Shown piece by piece: positions 7,749 through 64,000 of a DNA stretch of 64,000 nt (positions are counted from its first letter, which is position 1; each line of letters starts with the position of its first letter). The position numbers and the translations under genes were made by a program. The stretch is from Aphrocallistes beatrix (lineage: Eukaryota; Porifera; Hexactinellida; Sceptrulophora; Aphrocallistidae). The stretch is taken from NCBI GenBank assembly GCA_963281255.1, contig OY725491.1, forward strand, positions 6,055,644 to 6,119,643, written 5' to 3'. Under the pieces are notes generated by a model. That model saw only the letters and a program-made list of their open reading frames with translations, ran no database searches and had not been told where the DNA came from.

Positions 7749-8936
7749 ATGGATTGTAACCAAAGCACGAGTTTTGGAAGTCAATCGTCGAGAGAACTTG
7801 GTAATAATAATCCAAGTACAATCTCAAATGTAAATTTTGAAACACCAGAAGATACGCCTCCGAAAGGACAGAATGAAAGTAGCAAGGAAAGCGCAGTTAG
7901 CGTTGTAAATCTTGATAAATCAACGAACGAAATAATTCCGAAAGAAGCCCAATCTAAAATTGAACCAAAACCTCTTCTTATAAATAATATAGCAACGATG
8001 CTCGCTGGAACCAACATAATCGATCCTACAAAATATGGAAGCTGTGAAGTTAGTTGGAATGATCCACACCTCCAAGTGCTACCCGGACTAAACATACTCG
8101 CTGTGTGTAGAAATATTGATTGCAAATTCCATTTGAAAGATGTAATGTGCCCAAAGGGAATCTATCCAGAAAATAATGGGTACTGTCCCTTCGACAAGGA
8201 GATTCATAAGGTCCATTGTCCCGTGTGCAAGCAACGAATTAAATTTGACAACTCGTTTGGATACTGTTTCTACCAATGTAAATTTGAAATAAAGTACATG
8301 CTAGATAACAATAACAGCGGGAAGCTAAACATGGAAGCATCAAACAATACGCTTATATTCGCTAAATGTAGCAATAGTATAAGCGGCCATTTGCAATACC
8401 TAGAGCTACAATTTTATAAGTGTCACACCACTCCACTCCCTACCCCCTCTCTACACCTACCCATCAGTGGAGGGGCGAGTAATCAACCGACTTTCGTTCC
8501 GATAGAATTCTATGACGTTACAAATGAAAATTGTTTTAGAACAAAAGAATTCTCTTTTAGTGTGACAGATTATGGGAGAGTGTGCAAGGGAATTAATTTT
8601 CAAGCTGAATGTACTAATAATCCTAGCTGCATATCGATAAAGGCATCTGACAGTGTTTATATTCAGATAGGAATGTGTGGAGACGACGGAGGATTGTGCC
8701 CAGTTCGGACACAAATTACGAAGATGTTTTGTCCTGCTTGTAAGTGCAAAATCCCTTCAAGTAATTGGAGAAATATGGTCTTCACGGACTGTACAGCCAA
8801 TATTGAATGGGCGCTAGCAAGTGATGAAGACACCCCTGGGACCACAGAAATCATCGTTCCAAGTGGAAAATGTTATAGAGCGAAAACAATTTGCGAAATA
8901 AAGGAATATTCGTTCCTTAATGTCAAGTTAAAATAG
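7749..8936 (+). CDS. A + Ubl-stub + B fusion protein of the cysteine-rich cluster
   Basis: This 395-residue protein is the only cluster gene with both module types. Residues 1-84 are Ser/Thr/Asn-rich and probably disordered. Module A spans about 85-224: WNDPHLQVLPGLN, C-x4-C, GYC, then CPVC and a final YQCKF. It ends like other A genes (LQYLELQ). Next come about 20 residues from CHTTPLP to ISGGA, which match the last part of the Ubl domain in neighbouring genes (CHTAPVP to IRGGA). Module B fills 245-395 (KGINFQAEC, CPACKCKI, FTDCTANIEW). The Arg before Gly-Gly is Ser here, so cleavage is less likely. One exon. The cysteines look like a zinc site, but this is inference. Function unknown. Confidence 0.85.
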   Translation: MDCNQSTSFGSQSSRELGNNNPSTISNVNFETPEDTPPKGQNESSKESAVSVVNLDKSTNEIIPKEAQSKIEPKPLLINNIATMLAGTNIIDPTKYGSCEVSWNDPHLQVLPGLNILAVCRNIDCKFHLKDVMCPKGIYPENNGYCPFDKEIHKVHCPVCKQRIKFDNSFGYCFYQCKFEIKYMLDNNNSGKLNMEASNNTLIFAKCSNSISGHLQYLELQFYKCHTTPLPTPSLHLPISGGASNQPTFVPIEFYDVTNENCFRTKEFSFSVTDYGRVCKGINFQAECTNNPSCISIKASDSVYIQIGMCGDDGGLCPVRTQITKMFCPACKCKIPSSNWRNMVFTDCTANIEWALASDEDTPGTTEIIVPSGKCYRAKTICEIKEYSFLNVKLK

Positions 8937-9463: not shown

Positions 9464-10174
9464 ATGCGACAGAAGCGGATCCTACGCATAGAGCTGTCTA
9501 GAGGCAGAGGAGGGAGTGTGTACGTGAGTGTGTCTCCTTCTGACTGTGTTCTCAGCATCAAACACAAACTAGAAACTCTCACAGGCATTCCTACTCTCTC
9601 CCAGACTCTCTACTATGCTGCTACTCCACTCTCTGACTCCACTCCTCTGCACGAGTTCTGCCACACCGCTCCAGTCCCTACCCTCTCTCTACATGTACCC
9701 ATCAGGGGAGGAGCGTGTAATCAATCGAGTAAACTTTTCGATTCGATAAAGTTTTATGATGTCACAAATAAAAATTGTTTTGAAACAAAAGAATTTTCTT
9801 CCAGGGCGCCAGATTATAGGACAGTTTGCAAAGGGATTAATCTTGAGGCGGTGTGTGATAATCCTAGATGTAGATCTGCAAATGACAATGTTGTTGATAT
9901 CCAGCTAGGAATGTGCACAAATAAGGGAGGCTATTGCTCCATTCGGAGAGCAGTATCAGATATGATTTGCCCTGCTTGTAACTGCAAAATCCCTTCAAGC
10001 AATTGGAGAAACATAACCTTCACCAACTGTACCGCGACAATTGAATGGGCATTAGCCTGCAACGAACAGATCAAGGGAAGTGTAGAACTCATCGTTTCAA
10101 GCAATGAATATAAACAAGCTAAGACCTCGTGCGAAATGAAGGAATACGCGTATCTTGATGTGGATGTAAAATAG
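9464..10174 (+). CDS. Ubiquitin-like + cysteine-rich B fusion, copy 1
   Basis: This is a 236-residue single-exon protein. Residues 1-83 form a ubiquitin-like domain: SIKHKLETLTGIP aligns with the ubiquitin helix NVKAKIQDKEGIP, and LSLHVPIRGG with LHLVLRLRGG. The domain ends in Arg-Gly-Gly (81-83), followed directly by Ala-Cys and module B (KGINLEAVC, a following C, GGYCSIR, CPACNCKI, FTNCTATIEW). Ubiquitin precursor fusions such as UBA52, RPS27A and FAU have this head-to-tail layout and are cleaved after Gly-Gly; I infer the same here. The ATG matches the start of three paralogues. Near-identical in DNA to the next gene, including the 3' flank. The biological role is unknown. Confidence 0.87.
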   Translation: MRQKRILRIELSRGRGGSVYVSVSPSDCVLSIKHKLETLTGIPTLSQTLYYAATPLSDSTPLHEFCHTAPVPTLSLHVPIRGGACNQSSKLFDSIKFYDVTNKNCFETKEFSSRAPDYRTVCKGINLEAVCDNPRCRSANDNVVDIQLGMCTNKGGYCSIRRAVSDMICPACNCKIPSSNWRNITFTNCTATIEWALACNEQIKGSVELIVSSNEYKQAKTSCEMKEYAYLDVDVK

Positions 10175-11740: not shown

Positions 11741-12544
11741 ATGTCGCAAACCAGCACTAGAAGATCGAGACGTAATCGTTGCAAGCAATATTCTTATGTT
11801 CGTGATAGAGATCGTTCCAGGTCACCAAACTTCAAGACACAGTTTTGTACTTCAAGTGTGAACCATAGCAATTATGACAGAGATCGAGGCCTGTTTATTG
11901 AACATGAATTTGATGAGTTTTTATATCAAACTAAACTCAATTCGTGCAGTGCTTCAGAAAACACGCGGAAATATATCTACACTAAATCTCACCAATTCAA
12001 ATCAGAAACAATGGTACCATGCATTCGTGATAACCTGATCTTGCAAGAAAATGAAATATCTACGAAGTTGGGAGAAAGTACTATCGCTGAGACGCAGAGT
12101 GCAAAGCTGTTTTACTCATTGAGCGGCTCTGATATAACAGATCCATTGTTCCACAGAAGAGTTCAAGTAAACTGGGACGACCAACATTTGCAAGTAGCTC
12201 CAGGCATGAACTACCTGGCTGTGTGTAAAAATGTGGAGTGTAAGATGCTTCTGAAAAATGTCATCTCTCCCAGAGGATTATTTCCGGAAAGAAATGGGTA
12301 CTGTGCTCTTGACAGAGAAATTTACAGGATCAAGTGTCCCGTGTGTCAAAAGCCTATCCATCCAGATGGTTCGGTGGGTATCGGATTCTTCAAGTGCAAG
12401 TTCCAAGTTTCCTACATGTTGAAGGCTTCGAGAAAAAAATCAATCGATTCGAGGGCTGAAGGAGAATGTCTTGTTTTTGGTAAATGCAGAAAATCTAGTC
12501 AAGAAATGTTTCAATACCTCGACATCAACGTAACAGCAATTTGA
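11741..12544 (+). CDS. Cysteine-rich A-module protein with Arg/Ser-rich N-terminus
   Basis: This is a 267-residue single-exon protein. The first ~45 residues are rich in Arg and Ser with RDRDRSRS-like dipeptides, as in RS domains. Module A covers about 125-267: SDITDP, then NWDDQHLQVAPGMN, C-x4-C, a Gly before NGYC, CPVCQKPI, FFKCKF, and a C-terminal YLDINV strand. The layout matches the other A modules. No Ubl and no diglycine are present. The RS-like start suggests, but does not prove, nuclear or RNA-associated location. Same strand as its neighbours; no intron seen. Function unknown. Confidence 0.8.
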   Translation: MSQTSTRRSRRNRCKQYSYVRDRDRSRSPNFKTQFCTSSVNHSNYDRDRGLFIEHEFDEFLYQTKLNSCSASENTRKYIYTKSHQFKSETMVPCIRDNLILQENEISTKLGESTIAETQSAKLFYSLSGSDITDPLFHRRVQVNWDDQHLQVAPGMNYLAVCKNVECKMLLKNVISPRGLFPERNGYCALDREIYRIKCPVCQKPIHPDGSVGIGFFKCKFQVSYMLKASRKKSIDSRAEGECLVFGKCRKSSQEMFQYLDINVTAI

Positions 12545-13186: not shown

Positions 13187-14893
13187 ATGAGCTCAGAAAA
13201 AGATAGAAGAGCGGGTCCTAACAATTATGGTGCTAAATTAACTGAATTTGGTCAGATGAAGAAGCATAATCCACACGAGTACAGAAGGGGAACAGACAAT
13301 CATCATTCCAAAGTACCACAAATAGAAAATTCCAAGCTATGGGACATAAATCGAAATCCCTCTATTGATTTCAAAAGAGATCTAACTTCTTCCCATTATC
13401 ATAGACACGATGTGTCTAAGAATAAACATACAAACAACAAGGATCTATATGGTCAAATAAATTGGGGAGAAGATCTCTCAACAAACACCGAAGTTGACAA
13501 GTCAAGGGCCCAGAATCCGAACCACAAAATAATATTTTATCCTCCAAATAGTCAAACTTTGTATTCAAAAACACTACTGTTTCCTTCAGAGGCTCGATAT
13601 GGCCCTGAAGATACACGAATCTCTCGACGAAAGCCTCAATCGCCTCCAGATACACAAACTTTACTTTCAAATACAGCTCCGTATATTCCAACGTCTCAAG
13701 TTACCTTTCCAGATACGCAGAACCTCCATTCAAACACACTACTATTTATTCTAAAACCTCAAACTGCCCTTCCAGATACACAAAATTTCCCTCGAAAGAG
13801 TGAAACATTCCTTCTAGATCATTCCAAAGAACCGCTATTAGAAAAGTCCAAGCTATGGGACATAAATCGAAATCCCTCTATTGATTTCAAAAGAGATCTA
13901 ACTTCTTCCCATTATCATAGCCACGATGAGTCTAAGAATAAACATACAAACAACAGGGATCTATATAGTCAAATAAATTGGGGAGAAGATCTCTCAACAA
14001 ACACCGAAGTTGAAAAGTCAAGGGCCCAGAATTCGAATGACAAAATAATATTGCACCCTCCAAATAGTCAATATATCTCTACGAATACTCAAACTTTTCA
14101 TTCAAAAACACTACCGCTTCCTAGAAGGGCTCGAATTACCACTGCAGATAAACAAACCTCCCAAAGAAAGCCTCAAACTCCTCCTGAAGATACACGAACT
14201 TTACTTTCAAATACACTTCCGTATATTCCAACGTCACAAGTTACCCTTCCAGATACGCAGATCTTCTATTCAAACATACTACCATTTACTCCGAAGCCTC
14301 AAACTACTTTTCCAGATACACAAAATTTCCCTCGAAAGACTGAAACCTCCTCCCCAGACAGCAAAATTTACTCTCTAAAACACTTCCAATTCCCTTCGTT
14401 ATATACGGTACCAAAAAAGAGTGGACTAGTTACAGTTATAGAAACAAATTATTCCAATTTATCTCAAAAGTCTTTCCTTACTTATGAAATAAACGTAGCC
14501 GACAAAGCTCATCAAATACCAGCTCCGGGTCTGAATTTCATCACCAAATGCAGGTGCCAGACAATGGATGACGACTTTATCATTCATCGGAGCGGTTTGA
14601 TTCCAGAAAATAATGGGTATTGCAATCTAGACAGGGAAATCCACCGACTGATATGTCCCTTGTGCAGAAAGCGTGTACCACCAGACCCGTGGCTTAGTGT
14701 AGGGTTTTATCAGTGCAAATTCAAGGTCACATTCCAGACAAACAGCGCGAAAATGAAGAACGGGCCTAAAACAATCAAAGGAAGTGCAAGAGGAAATCGT
14801 CTTAAATTCGCCAAATGCTTCCCACCAGGCGGATTCAAGTATCTCTTTCTAGACGTAGAAGTTGAAGCCACGACTGATATAACTTTGGTTTAA
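13187..14893 (+). CDS. Large A-module protein with duplicated low-complexity N-terminus
   Basis: This 568-residue single-exon protein is the longest of the cluster. Residues 1 to about 420 are polar and repetitive, with many PDTQ/SNT elements and Pro/Thr/Ser-rich spacers. A segment starting SKLWDINRNPSIDFKRDL occurs twice, 172 codons apart. The C-terminal ~130 residues are a divergent A module: APGLNFITKC, then C-x-C instead of C-x4-C, NNGYC, CPLCRKRV, FYQCKFKV and a final LFLDVEV strand. The modified first Cys pair may change metal binding. It looks like a fast-evolving scaffold or adaptor, but I cannot assign a function. Confidence 0.78.
   Translation: MSSEKDRRAGPNNYGAKLTEFGQMKKHNPHEYRRGTDNHHSKVPQIENSKLWDINRNPSIDFKRDLTSSHYHRHDVSKNKHTNNKDLYGQINWGEDLSTNTEVDKSRAQNPNHKIIFYPPNSQTLYSKTLLFPSEARYGPEDTRISRRKPQSPPDTQTLLSNTAPYIPTSQVTFPDTQNLHSNTLLFILKPQTALPDTQNFPRKSETFLLDHSKEPLLEKSKLWDINRNPSIDFKRDLTSSHYHSHDESKNKHTNNRDLYSQINWGEDLSTNTEVEKSRAQNSNDKIILHPPNSQYISTNTQTFHSKTLPLPRRARITTADKQTSQRKPQTPPEDTRTLLSNTLPYIPTSQVTLPDTQIFYSNILPFTPKPQTTFPDTQNFPRKTETSSPDSKIYSLKHFQFPSLYTVPKKSGLVTVIETNYSNLSQKSFLTYEINVADKAHQIPAPGLNFITKCRCQTMDDDFIIHRSGLIPENNGYCNLDREIHRLICPLCRKRVPPDPWLSVGFYQCKFKVTFQTNSAKMKNGPKTIKGSARGNRLKFAKCFPPGGFKYLFLDVEVEATTDITLV
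13331..14362 (+). repeat. Internal in-frame tandem duplication
   Basis: The segment beginning TCCAAGCTATGGGACATA at 13331 recurs at 13847, 516 bp (172 codons) later, inside the large A-module gene. The first ~170 bp of each copy are nearly identical; the rest is more diverged with a ~20-bp length difference. The reading frame is kept. Confidence 0.85.
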
Positions 14894-15162: not shown

Positions 15163-15681
15163 ATGGGACATCCTTTCAGTTCAGTTCACTCTACTGATCC
15201 ACAATATGAGCCTTGCAGCCCAGTTAAGTCAACAGGACAAGACGTTGACATCTTCCAACTGTTAGAAGGCACCGATGTAACGAATGCCAGTCAATACGCT
15301 TGCTGCGACGTAACATGGAATGAAGAACACCTCAGAGTAGTAAACGGAATCAACTTCTTAGCAACGTGCAAGAATGTCGATTGTCCGCTGTTCTTAAAGG
15401 GAGTGGTCAGTCCGATGGGAACGTACGGACATAGAAAGGGACTTTGTACAATTGACAGAGAGATGCAGGGCATCACGTGTCCCAGGTGTAAGAAATTGAT
15501 TCAACCCGACTCCTCATTAGGAATTGGAATCTGCAATTGCAAGTTTGAAGTGAGGTTTAAGATGAAGAATGAGAAGGAGAGAATGATAAAGTGTGCGACT
15601 CAAACTAACCAACTTGTACTGGTGAAATGTTTCAAACTGTCTTCCCAAAAATTTGATTTTCTGGAAATACAAATAACCTAA
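15163..15681 (+). CDS. Short cysteine-rich A-module protein
   Basis: A 172-residue single-exon protein that is mostly module A. A short N-terminus of about 35 residues precedes LLEGTDVTNASQY, TWNEEHLRVVNGIN, C-x4-C (CKNVDC), a Gly-rich turn with GLC in place of GYC, CPRCKKLI, ICNCKF, and a final FLEIQIT strand. It is close to a minimal A unit and useful for defining domain borders. It ends only 141 bp before the next Ubl-B gene on the same strand. Function unknown. Confidence 0.82.
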   Translation: MGHPFSSVHSTDPQYEPCSPVKSTGQDVDIFQLLEGTDVTNASQYACCDVTWNEEHLRVVNGINFLATCKNVDCPLFLKGVVSPMGTYGHRKGLCTIDREMQGITCPRCKKLIQPDSSLGIGICNCKFEVRFKMKNEKERMIKCATQTNQLVLVKCFKLSSQKFDFLEIQIT

Positions 15682-15822: not shown

Positions 15823-16527
15823 ATGCGACAGAAGCGGATCCTACGCATAGAGCTGTCTAGAGGCAGAGGAGGGAGTGTGTACGTGAGTGTGTCTACTTCT
15901 GACTGTGTTCTCAGCATCAAACACGAACTAGAAACTCTCACAGGCATTCCCACTCTCTCCCAGACTCTCTACCATGCTGCTACTCAACTCTCTGACACCA
16001 CTCCTCTGCACGAGTTCTGTCACACCTCTCCAGTCCCTACCCTCTCTCTACATGTACCCATCAGGGGAGGGGCGAGTAGACAAACTACTGGATTCCAACC
16101 TTTCATTTTCAAGGATGTGACTAAGGAAGAATGTTTTGAGAAAGCAAAGTTAGGAAATAGTAATACATTCTACTTAATTGTTCAGAAAGGTTTGAATTTT
16201 CAAGCTATTTGTGCAAATCAATACTGTCAGTCAGTGAGACATGGCAATGTTGTGTATATTAGTAAGGGGATGTATCCCGATCAAGGAGGATACGTGTCTA
16301 TACGCAGAGAGGTGTTCAGGCTGAAATGCCCGGCATGCAAAGCAAACATCCCAGCTGAAAATTGGCAAAACATAGTATTTACCGACTGTACAGCTAATAT
16401 AGAATGGATTCTGGTGGACAAGAGTGAAGGGACAACAAAGTTGGTGACTGAGAAAGGAATGTTCACTCGCGCGAAAGCAAGCGTCGGTATGCTGGAATAC
16501 CACACATTGGATGTAACCCTGAAGTAA
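15823..16527 (+). CDS. Ubiquitin-like + cysteine-rich B fusion, copy 3
   Basis: This 234-residue protein has a Ubl domain (1-83, ending HVPIRGG) nearly identical in DNA to copies 1 and 2 but sharing distinct changes with copy 4 (for example STSD, YHAAT, LSDTTP). The B module after Gly-Gly starts ASRQTTGFQPF, which lines up without a gap with the start of the free-standing B genes (MACGQSTGFQPF). Core features are KGLNFQAIC, a following Cys, GGYVSIR, CPACKANIP, FTDCTANIEW. This gene is the key link between Ubl-fused and free B proteins. Cleavage after Gly83 is inferred, not shown. One exon; role unknown. Confidence 0.87.
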   Translation: MRQKRILRIELSRGRGGSVYVSVSTSDCVLSIKHELETLTGIPTLSQTLYHAATQLSDTTPLHEFCHTSPVPTLSLHVPIRGGASRQTTGFQPFIFKDVTKEECFEKAKLGNSNTFYLIVQKGLNFQAICANQYCQSVRHGNVVYISKGMYPDQGGYVSIRREVFRLKCPACKANIPAENWQNIVFTDCTANIEWILVDKSEGTTKLVTEKGMFTRAKASVGMLEYHTLDVTLK

Positions 16528-16761
16528 GAAAATCATTCCTGAAATAACTGAAGGATATAACTGGAAGTTTAGAAATGTGTGTTTGTTTATGAACTCATAA
16601 ATATCATTAACAATTTTTGATTGCTAATTTAAGGCAGGGTATTTTTTTATGTGTTAAAATTAATGACTATAGCTTTCGTAGAAAACTTGTTACATTGCTA
16701 TGATATTATAAGGTACTGTTAGTAATTATCCCAAAGTGCAACCGCATACCTGTAAATAAAT

Positions 16762-16905
16762 CAGGTCTCTTTATTCACTGAAGTTCTGAGATTCTAAGAA
16801 TTCGATTTAAATGTAGATAATTTCTTAGAATCTAGTGAATTTCTAAGAATTACGGTAAAATCTAAGAAATAATTTCAGTTTAGAACTTTAGTGAATGAGG
16901 CCCTG
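16762..16905. mobile_element. MITE-like element with hAT-style ends
   Basis: A 144-bp inverted-repeat element. The left end runs CAGGTCTCTTTATTCACTGA; the right end read in reverse runs CAGGGCCTCATTCACTAAAG, continuing with AGTTCT on both sides. The interior is AT-rich with repeats of TCTAAGAA. CAGGG ends fit hAT-type non-autonomous elements. No target-site duplication is clear, so the call is tentative. Confidence 0.6.
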
Positions 16906-17098
16906 CTGGTCTTCTACCACCTTATATCGGTAATAACATCCTGTACTAGCTATGCCTCATCGTATCACAGTAGACATAAAATAACATGTACGATCTGAAT
17001 TTAATATGGAAATCCTAGCTGTGCCAGAAATGAATTAATATAAGTCGGTTATTTTATTGGTGAGATAGACTATCCAAATAAAAACAAAATCTGTAAAA

Positions 17099-17797
17099 AT
17101 GCGACAGAAGCGGATCCTACACATAGAGTTGTCTAGAGGCAGAGGAGGGAGTGTGTACGTGAGTGTGTCTACTTCTGACTGTGTTCTCAGCATCAAACAC
17201 GAACTAGAAACTCTCACAGGCATTCCCACTCTCTCCCAGACTCTCTACCATGCTGCTACTCAACTCTCTGACACCACTCCTCTGCACGAGTTCTGCCACA
17301 CCGCTCCAGTCCCTACCCTCTCTCTACATGTACCCATCAGGGGAGGGGCGAGTAGGTATCCAACGAATGAACCATTGGAGTTTGTAGAATTAAATCAAAT
17401 ACAATTCTTACAAGAATTGTCACTAAACGAAAAGATAGGACATTGTGGAGTTAAGAAGGGCGTCAACATAGTTATTCGGTGTGGTAACATGTATTGTGGG
17501 TTGGGAGCGACGAATAGTGACGTAATTCTACAAAAGGAGAACTACGCAGAGCATTTGGGTTATTGCAGTGTTCGCACTGAACTATTGAATATGCACTGTC
17601 CACAATGTGGTAGCAAGATTCCGAGTTTGGAGAGCTTCGTATTTGTAGACTGTGTGGTGCTGGTAGAGTGGAGGATGAAGGACGGAGACGAAGACAGGAA
17701 AGAGTTGAGAGCACAGGGAGACACGTACCAGATCCTTAGACTCACCTCTGTCGACGTACTCTACGAGTATATTGACTTCAGAGTTAGACTCAATTGA
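17099..17797 (+). CDS. Ubiquitin-like + divergent B fusion, copy 4
   Basis: This 232-residue protein has a Ubl domain (1-83, ending IRGG) close to copy 3 but the most divergent B module of the cluster. After Gly-Gly it starts ASRYPTNEP and keeps the core pattern (KKGVNIVIRC, C-x4-C, LGYCSVR, CPQCGSKI, FVDCVVLVEW) while most other positions differ. Conservation of the Ubl with divergence of the attached part is clearest here. Its C-terminus (IDFRVRLN) replaces the usual LDVxLK ending. One exon, ATG aligned with paralogues. Function unknown. Confidence 0.85.
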   Translation: MRQKRILHIELSRGRGGSVYVSVSTSDCVLSIKHELETLTGIPTLSQTLYHAATQLSDTTPLHEFCHTAPVPTLSLHVPIRGGASRYPTNEPLEFVELNQIQFLQELSLNEKIGHCGVKKGVNIVIRCGNMYCGLGATNSDVILQKENYAEHLGYCSVRTELLNMHCPQCGSKIPSLESFVFVDCVVLVEWRMKDGDEDRKELRAQGDTYQILRLTSVDVLYEYIDFRVRLN

Positions 17798-18314
17798 AAT
17801 ACTCCTGTTGATGTCCCTTAGTAATTCCATACAATATGTCATAATTAATTGATTTGCTTGTCTGATTTGTAAATAGATTTACTCTCAATCATGCATTATT
17901 ACATTGGAAAACATACATACGCAGTGTCTAAGGGGAAGTTGCAATGTAGATAGATGGTGGAATACTAAACAATAGATGACATGGTTCAATTAATTTCTAT
18001 TTAATGAATTAATCATTATTTATAATACGTGCAAAACTGCAACAAACCTGAAAATAAATATGAAGAGTAATAGCTAACCACAGCGTCACCTCACGCATAG
18101 ATTTTAAAGTCACGTGCTAGATGTCAGGACTTGGGTTTTACAATTAGAACAAAAGGAAGCAATAAACAATCACCACATAATTGCATATTTAGTGAATAAT
18201 ACAGATATGTATACCATTTTCTCTTTGATTTTCAGATTTTGATGATCAGATAAGAGCGTGAAATCTATACAGTATCCGCATTATTTCATTCAAGTAAAGG
18301 AATTCCCTAATAGG

Positions 18315-18782
18315 ATGGCTTGTGGACAAAGTACTGGCTTTCAACCCTTCTTATTCAAAGATGTGACTAATGAAGATTGTTTCGAGACATTAAGTTTTGG
18401 ATGTTCTACTGGTAATCATCGACATTACAGAACGATTGACAAAGGTTTGAATTTTCAAGCTCAGTGCGAAAATCAGATGTGTAAATCAATGGAAGGAGGT
18501 GGCTGCGTGTACATCAGCAAAGGAATGTATCCAGATCAAGGAGGATACGTGTCTATACGTAGCGAGGTATTCGAATTGAAATGTCCTGCTTGTGGAGCGG
18601 AAATTCCAGCTGAAAATTGGAAAAACATCGTCTTTACTGACTGCACTGCAACGATAAAATGGCGTTTAGTTGACAGCTGTAATGGAGAAACGTTATTGGT
18701 GACTGAGAGTGGAATGTTTACTCGCGCAAAGCCAAGCGTCCAAATGATCCTCTACCACAAGTTGGATGTGATTTTGAAGTGA
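18315..18782 (+). CDS. Free-standing B-module protein 1
   Basis: This 155-residue protein consists only of module B. It starts MACGQSTGFQPFLFKDVTN, aligning exactly with the residues after Gly-Gly in the Ubl-B gene at 15823. Core: KGLNFQAQC, C-x4-C, GGCVYISKGMY, GGYVSIR, CPACGAEIP, FTDCTATIKW, final LDVILK. An in-frame non-ATG extension starts at 18258, but the ATG at 18315 matches both sister genes and has a similar leader. Removal of Met would leave an N-terminal Ala as in the predicted cleaved products. Function unknown; the Cys set suggests a zinc fold. Confidence 0.83.
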   Translation: MACGQSTGFQPFLFKDVTNEDCFETLSFGCSTGNHRHYRTIDKGLNFQAQCENQMCKSMEGGGCVYISKGMYPDQGGYVSIRSEVFELKCPACGAEIPAENWKNIVFTDCTATIKWRLVDSCNGETLLVTESGMFTRAKPSVQMILYHKLDVILK

Positions 18783-19299
18783 AATGCTCTAACTCTGGTT
18801 CTTAACAAGTAAGTTGTAGTGAGTAGAATTATAAGTTTACGTACAAGTAATGTACAACTCAGTAAAACCTCGATTTGTATTTAGAATATTGTGAATGTCA
18901 TAGAATATGTATATGTAATTGAATATCTTATATTAGTTTACGTAAGTAAACGGGCAAACCTAGCTTAGTTCCTTGACCAAAGCGTTTAGCCTAGTGATTA
19001 ATGAATCTAGGTTTTGCCAAAGCTATCAGCTAGATGCATGGAATGAGCAGAAGTATCATTTCACTTTGTTAGCAATTATGAGCGGCGCTAGTGCATTTAA
19101 AAAGGGTATGCGATACCCAGCAACCCAATATTCAGGCTGGGCTATCTATATTTCTTTTCTGCTATTCGCGATGCCGAATGCATAAAGTTAGCTCTAGACA
19201 CTTCCCTCCCCTGCTTCAAGATTACAAACAAATATTATAATTGTTTATAAGCTATATTAGCTCACCATTGACTTAGAATCTAGAAAATTCGCGAATACC

Positions 19300-20373
19300 A
19301 TGGGGGATGAAAAGAACGCGTGTAGCGAGGGACTCGAAGAAATTGAACCGCTACTCTCTAACTTGAAGATAGAAGACGAACCAAAAAGAGGGGGGCCTTA
19401 TAATTTAAGACCCAGGAAACCCAAAGAGAATGGTGTGAGCAACGCCAGCAAAAAGCGTAAAGTGACGCATAAAACAGAACGAGAAATGAAGACACAAGAC
19501 ATGGCAGAGGAAATACACAGTAATCGTTTTCCATCGTTAAAATTAACCAAAATAAAGACAGAAAAAGATCAAGATCCTATAGATCAAAATTCAAAAGCAT
19601 TCCGAGCAGATACAAAGAAAACAAAAGAAATTGAATACCCCCCTCAGTCCATTTCTATAAAAACAGAGTCTCATCCATTCAGTTCGTCTTACCATTCTGC
19701 AGATGAGACACAGCTCACTAAGGCAGAATATGAATCAGATATAAACTCACCACCAAACTATTCCCAACCATTGCAAACTCTACTTCCCAAGGATACAGAA
19801 CGCGCACGGTCAGATGATACTGTGAATAAACATCGTGAAAAAGCTCAAACCAACCAACTCATTCCACATAATCCTACTGGAGAGCTGTATTTACCGTGTT
19901 GCTTGGTAAAGAAGGAAATAAACTCGGAAGAAGATCTATTCTCCACATTGCATTCGTCTCGCATCGTAGACAAGACAGGTTGCAAATTCATAATGGCAGA
20001 GTACAATTGGAGCGAGAAACACCTTCGATTGGTGCCAGGACTTAACATACTGGCCACCTGTAAGAACATTGAATGTACTAAACACCTAGAAGGTGTTGTG
20101 TGTCCTAGGGGGTGGTTTCCAGAGAGAAAGGGGTACTGTCCACTAGACGGAGAAGTATTCAATGCCACCTGTCCCCAGTGCAAGAAAAGTATAATTCCTG
20201 ACGATTCTTTAGGATTTGGGTTCTACAATTGCAGTTTTCAACTAACTTACAAACTTCACAAACAACCCAAGCACACTACAGAGATAATGAAGAAGGAGAA
20301 TACGATATATTTCGGGAAATACAGGCCTCTCAACGAAACATTAGACATTCTGCAGGTTAGGATGAGTGTGTAG
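19300..20373 (+). CDS. A-module protein with basic, SUMO-motif-rich N-terminus 1
   Basis: This is a 357-residue single-exon protein. Residues 1-225 are probably disordered and basic, with an NLS-like KKRKVTHK near residue 50 and several psi-K-x-E motifs (LKIE, IKTE twice, VKKE), the SUMO attachment consensus. Module A covers about 226-357: YNWSEKHLRLVPGLN, C-x4-C, PERKGYC, CPQCKKSI, FYNCSF, and LQVRMSV at the end. The start ATG has a good context (accATGG). The paralogue at 23228 shares the architecture. A nuclear, SUMO-linked role is a hypothesis from motifs only. Confidence 0.82.
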   Translation: MGDEKNACSEGLEEIEPLLSNLKIEDEPKRGGPYNLRPRKPKENGVSNASKKRKVTHKTEREMKTQDMAEEIHSNRFPSLKLTKIKTEKDQDPIDQNSKAFRADTKKTKEIEYPPQSISIKTESHPFSSSYHSADETQLTKAEYESDINSPPNYSQPLQTLLPKDTERARSDDTVNKHREKAQTNQLIPHNPTGELYLPCCLVKKEINSEEDLFSTLHSSRIVDKTGCKFIMAEYNWSEKHLRLVPGLNILATCKNIECTKHLEGVVCPRGWFPERKGYCPLDGEVFNATCPQCKKSIIPDDSLGFGFYNCSFQLTYKLHKQPKHTTEIMKKENTIYFGKYRPLNETLDILQVRMSV

Positions 20374-21101
20374 GATTACTAGTTGGACTGACATGTAATC
20401 ATAATACTTTGTGTTACAAGTGCTGGTACTGCTACACTATGTAACAATTACTGTGTTTTCTAGTTATTAATATGTACTATCTTTACTACTAAAATAGAAT
20501 TGTTGTTTGTCCGTAATTAATTGGGAAGATCATATGTTCTATTTCTGTACCGAATTTAGTAGGAGAGAGAGCTACTTATGCTAAATCAACGAATATGCTG
20601 AATAGGTTCGACTTGAATAAGAATTTTCAAACTGAAAAATAAGACTGAAAAAAAGGCTGAATGTCCAAATTGGAATAAAAACAATAATTAGTTTTTTTAA
20701 GGTTGAGACCTTGGTGTAACTCAGCTTAACCGTGGCGTTAGCCCCCGAAAAAATATGAACCTAATAATGTGTCGAAAAAATCGTGACACAAATCGTGGTG
20801 GAACTCCCAAAAATCGTGGTGTAATTTTCACACCAGTTAAATATGTGCGTTTCTTAAAAACTTAACCGGCTAATTTTAAAATATTTCGAACCAAAACCTT
20901 ATAATTTCCTTTGTTTCCTAACAATCCCAAACAAATGCCTCCAACAAACCCTTTCTATTTCTTCGTGAGTTCTAGGTTGTGAGTTATTGATTATATCTCT
21001 ATCTATCGTAAGAATTATCAACAACCTCGAAAACTTACAATTTACGTATAAGTTTAGCATCGACCATTCTTTAAGTGAAGTAATATACATTCTCTAATTG
21101 G
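20374..21101. other. Intergenic spacer in the cluster
   Basis: 728 bp of AT-rich DNA with several AAATCGTGG repeats at 20790-20822. It presumably carries the 3' end of the A gene and the promoter of the next B gene. No gene seen. Confidence 0.5.
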
Positions 21102-21560
21102 ATGGCTTCTGGACAAAGTACTGGCTTTCAACCCTTCTTGTTCAAAGATGTGACTAACGAAGATTGTTTCGAGAAAAGAAGTTTGGTAAGCGGAGGTAAA
21201 TATTATCGAACGATTGACAAAGGTTTGAATTTTAAAGCTCAGTGTGAAAATCAGATGTGTGAATCAGTGAAAGACGGTTGCTACGTGAACATCAAGAAAG
21301 GAATGTATCCAGATCAAGGAGGGTACGTGTCTATACGTAGCGAGGTATTTGAATTGAAGTGCCCTGCTTGTGGAGCGGAAATTCCAGCTGAAAATTGGAA
21401 AAACATCGTCTTTAATGACTGCACTGCATTGATAAAGTGGATTTTGGTTGAGAACGGAGGCGGAGTAACGTTATTGGTGACTGAAAGAGGAAAGTACACT
21501 CGTGCAAAGCCAAGCGTTCAAATGATCCTCTACCACAAGTTGGATGTGATGTTGAAGTGA
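21102..21560 (+). CDS. Free-standing B-module protein 2
   Basis: A 152-residue B-only protein starting MASGQSTGFQPFLFKDVTN. It keeps KGLNFKAQC, C-x4-C, GGYVSIR, CPACGAEIP, FNDCTALIKW and LDVMLK. It differs from its sisters mainly in a charged loop (VKDGCYVNIKKG) and near KRSLVSGG. The start again matches the post-diglycine position of the Ubl-B genes. Single exon, same strand. Function unknown. Confidence 0.83.
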   Translation: MASGQSTGFQPFLFKDVTNEDCFEKRSLVSGGKYYRTIDKGLNFKAQCENQMCESVKDGCYVNIKKGMYPDQGGYVSIRSEVFELKCPACGAEIPAENWKNIVFNDCTALIKWILVENGGGVTLLVTERGKYTRAKPSVQMILYHKLDVMLK

Positions 21561-22274
21561 AATGCTCTAACTCTGCTTCTTAACAATTATATTTTGTAAG
21601 TTGTAGAAAGTATGTTACGTGAATGTAAAACTCAATTAGAGATTTGTATTCAGAATATTGTGAATGTGATACATTAGATAATTACTTAATTTAATATTTA
21701 ATACAAATCTAAATAAGGGACAAACTAGCCTAGTCTCGTAGACTCAAGGGTTTAAAATCTCTAACATTCCAATTTAACAATGGGAAGGTGGTGGAAGTGG
21801 TTTGGCCTTAAGAACTACGGATTTATGGCAAAAGTGACTATAATAAAGGACACGTACAGTCTTGTATCACAAATATTAAAATACAGATGCAGATTGATTG
21901 TCCGAAATTGGTGAAAGTATTCCATAAAGTCATCCTGTATTACTTATTAGTCCCTTGTTAGTTTAAAATATAAATAGTTAAACACGCTAAGGAAAAAATA
22001 ATCATTAATTAATACGGGGTTATAAATATAACTAGCTTACTACAGCATCACCTCACGCGTATCTTTGAAAACTATCATAGTATGTTAATATGCCAATGCC
22101 TCAAGGGTTACGATTAGTGACAAAAGGAAACTCTAAAACGATAACCGCATAATAATATCCGTAAAATGTATATATAATTTTGATTTGAGATCTAGATTGT
22201 GAATATCTATAGTCTAAAGTCTCCGGTTTGTATCGACATCCTTTCATTCAAGTAGAGCATTACAGATTCATAGG
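21561..22274. other. Intergenic spacer in the cluster
   Basis: 714 bp of AT-rich DNA. The part from about 22040 to 22150 resembles the region upstream of the B gene at 18315, so it is duplicated promoter or leader sequence. No gene seen. Confidence 0.5.
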
Positions 22275-22733
22275 ATGGCTTGTGGACAAAGTACTGGCTT
22301 TCAACCCTTCTTATTCAAAGATGTGACTAATGAAGATTGTTTTGAGAAAAATAGTTTGGCAAGCGGAGGCAAATATTATCTAACGATAGACAAAGGTTTG
22401 AGTTTTCAAGCTCAGTGCGAAAATCAGATGTGTGAATCAATGGAAGAAGGTGGCTGCGTGTACATCAGTAAAGGAATGTATCCAAGTCAAGGAGGATATG
22501 TGTCTATACGTAGCGAGGTATTCGAATTGAAGTGTCCTGCTTGTGAAGCCGAAATTCCAGCTGAAAATTGGAAAAACATCGTCTTTACTGACTGCACTGC
22601 ATTGATAAAGTGGATTTTGGTTGAGAACGGAAGCGGAGAAACGTTATTGGTGACTGAGAGTGGAAAGTACACTCGTGCAAAGCCAAGCGTTCAAATGATC
22701 CTCTACCACAAGTTGGATGTGATGTTGAAGTAA
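22275..22733 (+). CDS. Free-standing B-module protein 3
   Basis: A 152-residue B-only protein, closest to the genes at 18315 and 21102. It begins MACGQSTGFQPFLFKDVTN and has KGLSFQAQC (Asn of the usual GLN replaced by Ser), C-x4-C, GGYVSIR, CPACEAEIP, FTDCTALIKW, LDVMLK. The Asn-to-Ser change is in an otherwise constant position. It is the B partner of the duplicated B-A block. Function unknown. Confidence 0.83.
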   Translation: MACGQSTGFQPFLFKDVTNEDCFEKNSLASGGKYYLTIDKGLSFQAQCENQMCESMEEGGCVYISKGMYPSQGGYVSIRSEVFELKCPACEAEIPAENWKNIVFTDCTALIKWILVENGSGETLLVTESGKYTRAKPSVQMILYHKLDVMLK

Positions 22734-23227: not shown

Positions 23228-24256
23228 ATGGAAGATAAAAAGAAAGCGCGGTCGTACGGGGATCAAGCGATTGAGGAGTTATTCTCTAAATTAAAGATAG
23301 AAGAAGCGCCAGGAAGAGAGCGACCTTACAGTCTCAGATCTAGGAAGCCAAGAGGGGCCAAAGAGAATGGCGCAGGTTATATTCGCAAAAAGCATAAAGA
23401 AACGCATAAAAAGAAACGAGAAATAAAGAAGCAGGGTAAAGAGAACTCACGGAAAAGTAGTAATCCTATTTTATCGGTAAAATTACCTAAAATAAAAGTT
23501 GAAAAAGATGATGGATCAATAGAACAGTATCTCACTCATTCCATTTCTATAAAAACAGAACTTTATCCCTTCAATTTGCCTTATAATCCAGGAGATGAGT
23601 CGCAACACTCTAGGGCAGAATATCTTTCAGATATAAAACCACCGCTAAATTACTTCTTTCAAAGTCTAAGTCTACTTCACGAAGATGCAGAACATAGAAG
23701 GCAGATTGATACCCTGGGTTGCCAACTAGAACAATCCCACCTCACCACTCCTAGCTCCACTGGAGAACTGAATCCATCATGTCGTTTAACTGAGAAAAAA
23801 ATATACTCGGAAGAAGATCTATTCTCTTTCATGAACATTTGTCGCATCGTAGGCAAGACAGGTTGCAAATTCATAATGGCAGAGTACAATTGGAGCGAGA
23901 AACACCTTCGATTGGTGCCAGGACTTAACATACTGGCTATCTGTACGAACTTTGACTGCACTAAATATCTAGAAGGTGTTGTGTGTCCTAGGGGGTGGTT
24001 TCCGGAGCGAAAGGGGTACTGTCCACTAGACGGAGAAGTATTCAATGCCACCTGTCCCCTGTGCAAGATAAGTATCACTCCTGACAATTCTTTAGGGTTT
24101 GGGTTCTATAATTGTGATTTTCAACTAACTTACAAACTTCACAAACAACCCAAGCACACTACGGAGATAATGAAGAAGGAGAATACGATATATTTCGGGA
24201 AATGCAAGCCTGCAAAAGAAACAATTGACATTCTGCAGGTTAGGATGAGTGTGTAG
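23228..24256 (+). CDS. A-module protein with basic, SUMO-motif-rich N-terminus 2
   Basis: A 342-residue paralogue of the gene at 19300. The N-terminal ~210 residues are basic and probably disordered, with LRSRKPRGAKEN and a Lys-rich stretch near residue 55. LKIE, IKVE and IKTE motifs sit at positions corresponding to the paralogue; the VKKE site is lost (EKKI). Module A is nearly identical: YNWSEKHLRLVPGLN, CTNFDC, PERKGYC, CPLCKISI, FYNCDF, LQVRMSV. It is the last cluster gene, converging on BTBD19 with 340 bp between stops. Function unknown. Confidence 0.82.
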   Translation: MEDKKKARSYGDQAIEELFSKLKIEEAPGRERPYSLRSRKPRGAKENGAGYIRKKHKETHKKKREIKKQGKENSRKSSNPILSVKLPKIKVEKDDGSIEQYLTHSISIKTELYPFNLPYNPGDESQHSRAEYLSDIKPPLNYFFQSLSLLHEDAEHRRQIDTLGCQLEQSHLTTPSSTGELNPSCRLTEKKIYSEEDLFSFMNICRIVGKTGCKFIMAEYNWSEKHLRLVPGLNILAICTNFDCTKYLEGVVCPRGWFPERKGYCPLDGEVFNATCPLCKISITPDNSLGFGFYNCDFQLTYKLHKQPKHTTEIMKKENTIYFGKCKPAKETIDILQVRMSV

Positions 24257-53780: not shown

Positions 53781-54352
53781 GTATGAGTCTTGATTCAAAG
53801 GAATAAAGCAAGAAAATAAATATATAAATTTCGATACATATTTGTGGACATCTAACCTGGCAACATAAGCAATAACAAATAGTATTTGCAATCGTCTTAA
53901 ATGTAGAACAGCGAGCATAAAAGTAAATTTTCGGGAAAATAAATCAACGAACCTCCCTAAATAAATTCAAAAACAACACGTTACTTTTGTTTCAGAGTAG
54001 AAGGGGAGAGTATATCTATTTCCGCTTCATTAATCTAATATTTGAGAAAAATAAAGAAAACAACGAAGAATTAATTGGAATAAGAGCAAAGTAAACCTAG
54101 CAACATAAGTGAAATAGTTGTATTTTAAAGAATTTTGATGAAAAATAATCTGCGCCGAATGGTGTTAACGAGATAGTGAGTTATGTCGTCATTGACTTAC
54201 CTGACAGACCTGACAGTTGTCGGGTAGCATGTATTGTGCGGGCATGTTGCGGGCTTGCGAGCCAGCCCGCCCCGCGTGCAACTCTGATGGTAGTGAAGCC
54301 AGTGGTACTTCGCAAACCACTCATTGCTAAAGGCGACCGAAGGGAGCCTCTG

Positions 54353-54372
54353 GCGGACACAAAGTGTCCGCA
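54353..54372. repeat. Hairpin-forming inverted repeat next to the satellite
   Basis: GCGGACAC-AAA-GTGTCCGC is a perfect 8-bp stem with a 3-base loop in a locally GC-rich segment (54200-54400) that differs from the AT-rich DNA to its left. It may be the end of a mobile element that borders the satellite, but I cannot name one. Confidence 0.45.
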
Positions 54373-54422
54373 AGTCGCACAACGCAATGAAGCAAAGCTC
54401 GCTTGTATTTATAATTCAATAA

Positions 54423-57400
54423 GGAATGTTGCCAGATGTGAGCGAAACCAGGCATTTTATGGCGGAAACGTTATAAGAGCAAAGCGAAAGGAAGCCTTTT
54501 GAGTGAGGAACAAATTGAAAATGAAAGTGATCTGAGGCATTTTCTGCTGCCTGTGGGGGGGTACAGTGACATTTTGAGGTTGGAATGTTGCCAGATGTGA
54601 GCGAAACCAGGCATTTTATGGCGGAAACGTTATAAGAGCAAAGCGAAAGGAAGCCTTTTGAGTGAGGAACAAATTGAAAATGAAAGTGATCTGAGGCATT
54701 TTCTGCTGCCTGTGGGGGGGTACAGTGACATTTTGAGGTTGGAATGTTGCCAGATGTGAGCGAAACCAGGCATTTTATGGCGGAAACGTTATAAGAGCAA
54801 AGCGAAAGGAAGCCTTTTGAGTGAGGAACAAATTGAAAATGAAAGTGATCTGAGGCATTTTCTGCTGCCTGTGGGGGGGTACAGTGACATTTTGAGGTTG
54901 GAATGTTGCCAGATGTGAGCGAAACCAGGCATTTTATGGCGGAAACGTTATAAGAGCAAAGCGAAAGGAAGCCTTTTGAGTGAGGAACAAATTGAAAATG
55001 AAAGTGATCTGAGGCATTTTCTGCTGCCTGTGGGGGGGTACAGTGACATTTTGAGGTTGGAATGTTTCCAGATGTGTGCGAAACCAGGCATTTTATGGCG
55101 GAAACGTTATAAGAGCAAAGCGAAAGGAAGCCTTTTGAGTGAGGAACAAATTGAAAATGAAAGTGATCTGAGGCATTTTCTGCTGCCTGTGGGGGGGTAC
55201 AGTGACATTTTGAGGTTGGAATGTTGCCAGATGTGAGCGAAACCAGGCATTTTATGGCGGAAACGTTATAAGAGCAAAGCGAAAGGAAGCCTTTTGAGTG
55301 AGGAACAAATTGAAAATGAAAGTGATCTGAGGCATTTTCTGCTGCCTGTGGGGGGGTACAGTGACATTTTGAGGTTGGAATGTTGCCAGATGTGAGCGAA
55401 ACCAGGCATTTTATGGCGGAAACGTTATAAGAGCAAAGCGAAAGGAAGCCTTTTGAGTGAGGAACAAATTGAAAATGAAAGTGATCTGAGGCATTTTCTG
55501 CTGCCTGTGGGGGGGTACAGTGACATTTTGAGGTTGGAATGTTGCCAGATGTGAGCGAAACCAGGCATTTTATGGCGGAAACGTTATAAGAGCAAAGCGA
55601 AAGGAAGCCTTTTGAGTGAGGAACAAATTGAAAATGAAAGTGATCTGAGGCATTTTCTGCTGCCTGTGGGGGGGTACAGTGACATTTTGAGGTTGGAATG
55701 TTGCCAGATGTGAGCGAAACCAGGCATTTTATGGCGGAAACGTTATAAGAGCAAAGCGAAAGGAAGCCTTTTGAGTGAGGAACAAATTGAAAATGAAAGT
55801 GATCTGAGGCATTTTCTGCTGCCTGTGGGGGGGTACAGTGACATTTTGAGGTTGGAATGTTGCCAGATGTGAGCGAAACCAGGCATTTTATGGCGGAAAC
55901 GTTATAAGAGCAAAGCGAAAGGAAGCCTTTTGAGTGAGGAACAAATTGAAAATGAAAGTGATCTGAGGCATTTTCTGCTGCCTGTGGGGGGGTACAGTGA
56001 CATTTTGAGGTTGGAATGTTGCCAGATGTGAGCGAAACCAGGCATTTTATGGCGGAAACGTTATAAGAGCAAAGCGAAAGGAAGCCTTTTGAGTGAGGAA
56101 CAAATTGAAAATGAAAGTGATCTGAGGCATTTTCTGCTGCCTGTGGGGGGGTACAGTGACATTTTGAGGTTGGAATGTTGCCAGATGTGAGCGAAACCAG
56201 GCATTTTATGGCGGAAACGTTATAAGAGCAAAGCGAAAGGAAGCCTTTTGAGTGAGGAACAAATTGAAAATGAAAGTGATCTGAGGCATTTTCTGCTGCC
56301 TGTGGGGGGGTACAGTGACATTTTGAGGTTGGAATGTTGCCAGATGTGAGCGAAACCAGGCATTTTATGGCGGAAACGTTATAAGAGCAAAGCGAAAGGA
56401 AGCCTTTTGAGTGAGGAACAAATTGAAAATGAAAGTGATCTGAGGCATTTTCTGCTGCCTGTGGGGGGGTACAGTGACATTTTGAGGTTGGAATGTTGCC
56501 AGATGTGAGCGAAACCAGGCATTTTATGGCGGAAACGTTATAAGAGCAAAGCGAAAGGAAGCCTTTTGAGTGAGGAACAAATTGAAAATGAAAGTGATCT
56601 GAGGCATTTTCTGCTGCCTGTGGGGGGGTACAGTGACATTTTGAGGTTGGAATGTTGCCAGATGTGAGCGAAACCAGGCATTTTATGGCGGAAACGTTAT
56701 AAGAGCAAAGCGAAAGGAAGCCTTTTGAGTGAGGAACAAATTGAAAATGAAAGTGATCTGAGGCATTTTCTGCTGCCTGTGGGGGGGTACAGTGACATTT
56801 TGAGGTTGGAATGTTGCCAGATGTGAGCGAAACCAGGCATTTTATGGCGGAAACGTTATAAGAGCAAAGCGAAAGGAAGCCTTTTGAGTGAGGAACAAAT
56901 TGAAAATGAAAGTGATCTGAGGCATTTTCTGCTGCCTGTGGGGGGGTACAGTGACATTTTGAGGTTGGAATGTTGCCAGATGTGAGCGAAACCAGGCATT
57001 TTATGGCGGAAACGTTATAAGAGCAAAGCGAAAGGAAGCCTTTTGAGTGAGGAACAAATTGAAAATGAAAGTGATCTGAGGCATTTTCTGCTGCCTGTGG
57101 GGGGGTACAGTGACATTTTGAGGTTGGAATGTTGCCAGATGTGAGCGAAACCAGGCATTTTATGGCGGAAACGTTATAAGAGCAAAGCGAAAGGAAGCCT
57201 TTTGAGTGAGGAACAAATTGAAAATGAAAGTGATCTGAGGCATTTTCTGCTGCCTGTGGGGGGGTACAGTGACATTTTGAGGTTGGAATGTTGCCAGATG
57301 TGAGCGAAACCAGGCATTTTATGGCGGAAACGTTATAAGAGCAAAGCGAAAGGAAGCCTTTTGAGTGAGGAACAAATTGAAAATGAAAGTGATCTGAGGC

Positions 57401-63400: not shown

Positions 63401-64000
63401 TTTTGAGTGAGGAACAAATTGAAAATGAAAGTGATCTGAGGCATTTTCTGCTGCCTGTGGGGGGGTACAGTGACATTTTGAGGTTGGAATGTTGCCAGAT
63501 GTGAGCGAAACCAGGCATTTTATGGCGGAAACGTTATAAGAGCAAAGCGAAAGGAAGCCTTTTGAGTGAGGAACAAATTGAAAATGAAAGTGATCTGAGG
63601 CATTTTCTGCTGCCTGTGGGGGGGTACAGTGACATTTTGAGGTTGGAATGTTGCCAGATGTGAGCGAACCAGGCATTTTATGGCGGAAACGTTATAAGAG
63701 CAAAGCGAAAGGAAGCCTTTTGAGTGAGGAACAAATTGAAAATGAAAGTGATCTGAGGCATTTTCTGCTGCCTGTGGGGGGTACAGTGACATTTTGAGGT
63801 TGGAATGTTGCCAGATGTGAGCGAAAACCAGGCATTTTATGGCGAAACGTTATAAGAGCAAAGCGAAAGGAAGCCTTTTGAGTGAGGAACAAATTGAAAA
63901 TGAAAGTGATCTGAGGCATTTTCTGCTGCCTGTGGGGGGGTACAGTGACATTTTGAGGTTGGAATGTTGCCAGATGTGAGCGAAACCAGGCATTTTATGG
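54423..64000. repeat. 159-bp satellite array, about 60 units
   Basis: Head-to-tail copies of a 159-bp unit, counted from TTGCCAGATGTGAGC at 54429 to the same phase at 63967, which gives 60 units plus a partial one at the window end. Almost all copies appear identical. One unit differs near 55065-55080 (TTTCCAGATGTGTGCG). The last units carry single-base indels near 63668, 63776, 63825 and 63844. Since 159 is 53 codons and one minus-strand frame has no stop, a 3086-codon open frame runs through the array; I do not regard it as a gene. The right end lies outside the window. Confidence 0.95.

Follow-up and report, generated by a model that had tools for sequence, protein, structure and literature searches.

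Does a ubiquitin-like domain (Ubl) that ends in Gly-Gly directly before another module mark a protein that is cut at this point, or one that stays whole? This question is raised by a gene cluster of the glass sponge Aphrocallistes beatrix (assembly GCA_963281255.1), located in a stretch of 64,000 nucleotides, here called the window, at the end of contig OY725491.1 (C4; positions 6,055,644 to 6,119,643). The cluster lies on the plus strand at 7.7–24.3 kb and consists of four intact genes in which a Ubl precedes a cysteine-rich module, B (Ubl-B genes), three free B genes, five type-A genes, which lack a Ubl and have a distant B-like domain, and one chimaera. In all four Ubl-B genes (4/4) the Ubl has 83 codons and the end IRGG, and B follows immediately. 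A preliminary description of this DNA had read these genes as diglycine-cleaved precursors. It was correct in its coordinates, frames and residues (the Ubl of W15823 ends IRGG, followed by ASRQTTGFQPF), and its reading is supported in part and indirectly, from sequence only, by the Gly-Gly conserved at 14 of 14 junctions on five contigs and by the homogenised Ubl DNA. We therefore think it probable that the Ubl-B genes encode cleaved precursors that work like UBA52, RPS27A and FAU, with a tail of no named family.

The comparison was made within the sponge's own genome (eukaryotic, 100.5 Mb, 28 contigs). A search with the window Ubl gave seven copies, four in the window and three on C14. B follows in all seven, and this Ubl was never found alone. 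Searches with two B modules gave 49 and 52 matches, and the surroundings that were read, which leave out the C18 matches, parts of C2 and C10 and C7:930 kb, revealed seven further Ubl-B genes. Their Ubls are of other types, and five of the genes lie on C20 and one each on C12 and C15. The intact Ubl-B genes found are thus 14 (C4, 4; C14, 3; C20, 5; C12, 1; C15, 1), and all have the layout of a precursor, with an N-terminal Ubl and Gly-Gly directly before B. A fusion kept with the Gly-Gly lost, which the preliminary description had named as the contrary case, was looked for in this genome only and did not occur. The residue after Gly-Gly is Ala in seven genes, Gly in three and Thr, His, Asp or Leu in one each; Pro never follows the first Gly-Gly (0/14). 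An Ala plus Cys or Ser at this place had been described as a common feature of the Ubl genes. This is true within the window, where it is partly common DNA of the homogenised Ubl block and so no independent evidence, but outside the window Ala-Thr, Gly, Thr, His, Asp, Ala-Gln or Leu follows.

The control consisted of 21 other PF00240 matches in 20 regions, hand-picked among 150 matches listed and drawn outside the B genes and a repeat cluster on C15. Fourteen of them (14/21) had other ends than Gly-Gly. The difference between 14/14 and 7/21 was significant (Fisher, p 6e-5; p 0.012 with the five contigs counted once each), and Gly-Gly at the junctions is more than chance. The control Ubls with Gly-Gly were L076, L083, L084, L085, L088, L089 and L092. 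Among these, L088 and L089 form a pair with a Gly-rich follow-on, L083 continues with Pro, and L076 is presumably an RPS27A-like fusion, a precursor of known kind (ubiquitin-RPS27A).

The DNA of the Ubl gives a second line of evidence. It is 88-99% identical in each of the 21 pairs that the seven genes of the window and C14 form. Synonymous divergence (dS) is 0.02-0.05 for pairs of window genes, 0.03-0.10 for pairs of C14 genes and 0.17-0.27 across the two groups, whereas dS in the B modules of the same pairs runs from 0.30 to saturation (Fisher on 5 of the 21 pairs, p 2e-5 to 8e-25). When the DNA is compared without gaps, identity is 0.20-0.53 over the 60 bases 5' of the ATG and 0.77-1.0 across the Ubl, and it drops 0-3 codons past Gly-Gly. 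The exception is W9464/W10583, a pair of young duplicates that have a stretch of 5' flank in common and B modules with a DNA identity of still 88%. When the 5' flanks were compared with gaps, this pair alone of the 21 beat all of 200 shuffles; W15823 came near with C14:3696 and C14:3701 (2 and 4 of 200 shuffles), and the other 18 pairs were not above background. The G+C content also differs, at 0.53 in the four window Ubls versus 0.41 in the four B modules measured. We infer that gene conversion caused this bounded similarity, which resembles the concerted evolution of ubiquitin genes, where the ubiquitin units are homogenised between loci while their partners differ (excerpts of PMC10457151 and PMC8122580).

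It might be argued that gene history is all there is to explain: B genes received a copied Ubl unit, or conversion spread it among them, and the junction simply mirrors the moved DNA. The near-identical blocks with sharp edges at the ATG and shortly past Gly-Gly, and the higher G+C content of the Ubl, would fit such a history. However, conversion accounts for the identity and not for the retention of Gly-Gly, and the Ubls of C20, C12 and C15 have diverged from each other and still end in Gly-Gly. We consider this explanation very improbable.

The free B genes of the window begin exactly where the cut would fall. As the preliminary description had claimed, the Ala of the three genes aligns without a gap to the residue after Gly-Gly (alignment A1), and their Met falls on the second Gly. 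The sequence makes the start of the gene at 21102 secure: its ATG is preceded, at a distance of 18 bases, by an in-frame stop, and there is no AG between this stop and the ATG, therefore a canonical acceptor cannot add an upstream coding exon. The genes at 18315 and 22275 have 7 and 6 AGs as possible acceptors, so that an upstream coding exon is conceivable, and they are without an upstream in-frame ATG. No Ubl remnant was found in the 400 bases 5' of the free-B ATGs with two Ubl references and 200 shuffles each, and none of the seven genomic Ubl copies lies just upstream of a free B gene.

In trees of 18 and of 23 B modules, the second with free B from C3 and type-A rows added and neither with a root inferred, the three window genes form one clade (support 90/94 and 95/93). 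This clade stands beside W15823 (99/99; 99/100) and inside an 11-row group (99/98; 96/98) whose other members carry the Ubl or its remnant. The window free B genes are under purifying selection, with a ratio dN/dS of 0.38-0.44 among themselves and of 0.17-0.24 against the B of W15823. The best fit is that the Ubl was lost once and that the start codon came to lie at the junction. C3 has five free B open reading frames (ORFs) starting MAEN, MGGS or MATN, two of which are outside the trees. Because the other three group with the C20 Ubl-B genes (86/88), a second loss is likely. The reverse order, in which free B is ancestral and a Ubl was added at the start codon several times, concerns the sequence of events and not the mechanism. 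The exact junction at Met and the free B on C3 would agree with it. However, the window clade lies inside Ubl-bearing genes and the C3 rows lie with C20, which in these unrooted trees favours two losses, and we regard the reverse order as rather improbable.

The Ubl itself is far from ubiquitin. The four window genes match PF00240 with E values of 2e-7 to 7e-5; at the cut-off of 25.4 bits W9464 and W10583 are above, and W15823 (23.0, E 6.7e-5) and W17099 (24.6) just below. An alignment of 12 of the 14 Ubl-B genes (A2), each with a PF00240 match at an E value of 1 or lower (best 7e-12), leaves only Met1, one Leu and Gly82-Gly83 invariant in the Ubl. For the comparison with ubiquitin, W15823 stood for the four window genes and C14:3698 for the three on C14, next to all seven others. 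These nine representatives have 17-32 residues identical to ubiquitin and keep its Ile44 in 3, Lys48 in 1, Lys63 in 1, Arg72 in 2 and Gly75-Gly76 in all 9. In the window Ubl 22 of 76 residues are identical to ubiquitin and the first four are all absent, with Tyr44, Thr48, Pro63 and Pro72 in their place and, by alignment, His and Val at positions 70 and 71; it is not ubiquitin proper. Its activation by the ubiquitin E1 seems unlikely because position 72 is Pro, judging from general E1 preferences. The Gly-Gly would permit conjugation of the Ubl without demonstrating it.

Several observations weigh against cleavage. Ordinary deubiquitinases may fail to recognise the window Ubl, given its Tyr44, His70, Val71 and Pro72. 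The fusion genes are paralogous copies, so the Gly-Gly cases are not independent, and 7 of the 21 sampled other Ubls likewise end in Gly-Gly. One of these is L092, presumably the SF3A1-like C-terminus with GGRKK, a Ubl that is not known to be cut. An extra Gly at the junctions of C14:3701, C20:489 and C20:485 makes the cut point uncertain there, and in C20:485 a Pro would come after the fourth Gly. In the chimaera W7749 some three quarters of the Ubl are lost, and the tail left at 8421-8474, CHTTPLPTPSLHLPISGG, which ends ISGG, is too short to fold, yet B still follows it in frame. Since the three window free B genes are one clade, their exact start is one event and not three, suggestive but not decisive, and the three aligned C3 genes start about five columns inside the C20 junction. 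A conflict between Ubl and B trees, sought as proof of gene conversion, was not significant: the B tree does not reject the window clade of the Ubl grouping (approximately unbiased test, p-AU 0.305), and homogenisation therefore rests on the dS contrast.

Part of this evidence would suit a protein that stays intact, with the Ubl as a built-in interaction domain and Gly-Gly as a flexible linker inherited from ubiquitin. Numerous Ubl proteins remain uncut, the surface of this Ubl is far from that of ubiquitin, the SF3A1-like end has kept its GGRKK in this genome, and W7749 has kept the fusion without a full Ubl. However, Gly-Gly is present in 14/14 genes while nearly all other Ubl columns vary, and a linker would require neither precisely these two residues where the fold ends nor a homogenised block with its edge nearby. 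An intact Ubl-B protein is thus unlikely in our opinion.

If the Ubl-B proteins are cleaved precursors, as we prefer, a cellular protease of the deubiquitinase (DUB) or ULP kind would most likely cut after the second Gly. The products would be the Ubl, with a length of 83 residues in the window genes, and a B whose first residue is the one after the cut. The four window genes would then deliver practically one Ubl with different B tails, as ubiquitin genes do. A sub-branch would have lost the Ubl and would make B directly, with translation starting where the cut used to fall; if Met is removed before Ala, the same kind of N-terminus would result. Two products are predicted by this reading: the Ubl on its own, with 83 residues, and B with an N-terminal Ala. 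Once free, the Ubl may be a modifier that has enzymes of its own, or it may chaperone B, a role proposed for ubiquitin towards ribosomal proteins (excerpt of PMC8122580).

Candidate proteases are abundant, with 61 USP-family matches, counted exon by exon, and 9 ULP-family matches in the genome. A tandem USP-family array at C17:3630818-3668145 (13 longer and 2 short matches, 2 of the longer ones with internal stops) appears to be a local expansion of deubiquitinase-like genes. A multi-exon USP gene, L096 (C20:473501-482500), adjoins the Ubl-B array of C20, which may be chance. It presumably is an old gene resembling USP47, and because of this resemblance we do not claim it as a dedicated protease.

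Precursors of ubiquitin or a Ubl with a whole protein as their tail are best known for three ribosomal proteins, and uncharacterised ubiquitin fusions with a similar cysteine-rich tail may occur in other eukaryotes. The Ubl-B genes probably work like the ubiquitin-tail and FAU precursors and belong to neither. They share with FUBI-eS30 (FAU) a diverged Ubl, a Gly-Gly junction and an N-terminal fusion to another protein. However, the FAU tail is the ribosomal eS30, whereas the tail here is B, a cysteine-rich module of no named family, in a multigene family with several Ubl types; a Pfam scan found no ribosomal family in the Ubl-B proteins. According to excerpts of the papers cited here, FUBI-eS30 is reported from a sponge, and all metazoans analysed there have kept the G-G dipeptide (PMC4515611), alteration of the diglycine makes FUBI-eS30 non-cleavable and USP36 is its processing enzyme (PMC8354635). 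FUBI is thus a case of a Ubl unlike ubiquitin that can be processed in this way and needs the diglycine (PMC8354635, PMC10611586). Ubiquitin-eL40 (UBA52), ubiquitin-eS31 (RPS27A) and polyubiquitin are similar in that a unit encoded in fusions is homogenised between loci while the partners differ, but the window Ubl is a different unit, as its low identity to ubiquitin indicates.

The sponge genome carries polyubiquitin genes, as well as genes that we take by their tail sequences to be UBA52-like and RPS27A-like. Polyubiquitin and the UBA52-like gene encode standard ubiquitin, while the Ubl of L076 (C16:3763874) is diverged and ends LSGG. Numerous tandem diverged ubiquitin repeats are spread over several large ORFs at C15:555014-584647. 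Outside animals, ubiquitin fusions to NiSOD, actin and zinc RING-like proteins have been described from the algae Bigelowiella and Guillardia, and in a targeted search human, yeast, Arabidopsis and Chlamydomonas reportedly yielded no clear ubiquitin fusion apart from S27a and L40 (both from an excerpt of PMC6332867). These algal genes are like ours in the N-terminal position and the non-ribosomal partners, some of them called zinc ring finger, but there the coding regions are those of ubiquitin, and the partners are set beside B by description only. No description of the Ubl-B architecture appeared in the titles or abstract starts of the literature searched, in which subscription journals are thinly covered.

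Module B has the pattern C-x4-C, C-P-x-C and one further Cys, invariant in 21 aligned sequences, which suggests a zinc-binding fold. Its best non-Ubl Pfam matches had E values of 0.05-0.1, its best PDB matches 0.053 (profile) and 0.12 (single sequence), and NCBIfam gave no relevant match for 4 proteins. The label of effector, given to B earlier, is not borne out, since no family in Pfam, NCBIfam or PDB matched significantly. Weak PDB matches of the B profile to copper ATPase domains and RBCK1 (E 0.05-0.1) were taken as chance. With one C20 B module as the query, relatives were not confirmed among pattern matches in viral contigs (0/3) and genome contigs (0/39) or in phages, all of them collections without eukaryotes. 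Several B-like matches each lie in open frames of up to 1294 aa at C2:732-747 kb, C10:4850-4853 kb and C18:41-45 kb.

A wider scheme is possible but doubtful: a lineage-specific system in which several Ubl types are made as B-tailed precursors, released by DUB or ULP enzymes and used as modifiers, with B as the matched partner family and the window and C14 Ubls kept uniform by conversion. A second kind of Ubl-Gly-Gly fusion, to another unnamed domain, exists in this genome: in L084 (C20:1047104) and L085 (C4:776176) a Ubl ending IRGG or LRGG is followed by a domain with RPYGWKR and SYHGT. Under such a scheme these genes would make Ubl-tail precursors a recurrent source of new proteins here. 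A multigene family with several diverged Ubls and a non-ribosomal tail would widen the set of such precursors, provide a natural test of what deubiquitinases need besides Gly-Gly, and be a case of concerted evolution acting on a Ubl other than ubiquitin.

Table 1. Genes and modules of the cluster, in positions of the window.
Feature	Positions	Strand	Description
Ubl of W15823	15823..16071	+	83 aa, ends IRGG (residues 82-83 GG); from ORF and sequence
Module B of W15823	16072..16527	+	starts ASRQTTGFQPF; from ORF and B alignment A1
Ubl-B gene W17099	17099..17797	+	Ubl 17099-17347; B from 17348, strongly diverged
Ubl-B gene W9464	9464..10174	+	junction IRGG/ACNQSS
Ubl-B gene W10583	10583..11296	+	junction IRGG/ACNQSS; has in-frame upstream ATG
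Chimaera W7749	7749..8936	+	type-A B-like domain, 18-residue Ubl tail and B module, in frame
Free B gene 18315	18315..18782	+	begins MACGQSTGFQPF
Free B gene 21102	21102..21560	+	begins MASGQSTGFQPF
Free B gene 22275	22275..22733	+	begins MACGQSTGFQPF
Type-A gene	11741..12544	+	distant B-like domain, N-terminal extension, no Ubl
Type-A gene	13187..14893	+	long N-terminal extension, no Ubl; from B-module searches of genome
Type-A gene	15163..15681	+	no Ubl; from B-module search and alignment A1
Type-A gene	19300..20373	+	no Ubl; from B-module searches of genome
Type-A gene	23228..24256	+	no Ubl; from B-module searches of genome

In W17099 an in-frame stop, with no AG after it, lies ahead of the start codon. 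The ATG of free B gene 18315 is at 18315, and the ORF listed from 18258 begins with GTG. Genes flanking the cluster include those for an SRCR-tyrosine kinase protein, a BTB-BACK protein, a proteasome subunit and a C2 protein. The end of the contig (window positions 54000-64000) has a strong GC skew and is probably repeat or subtelomeric DNA.

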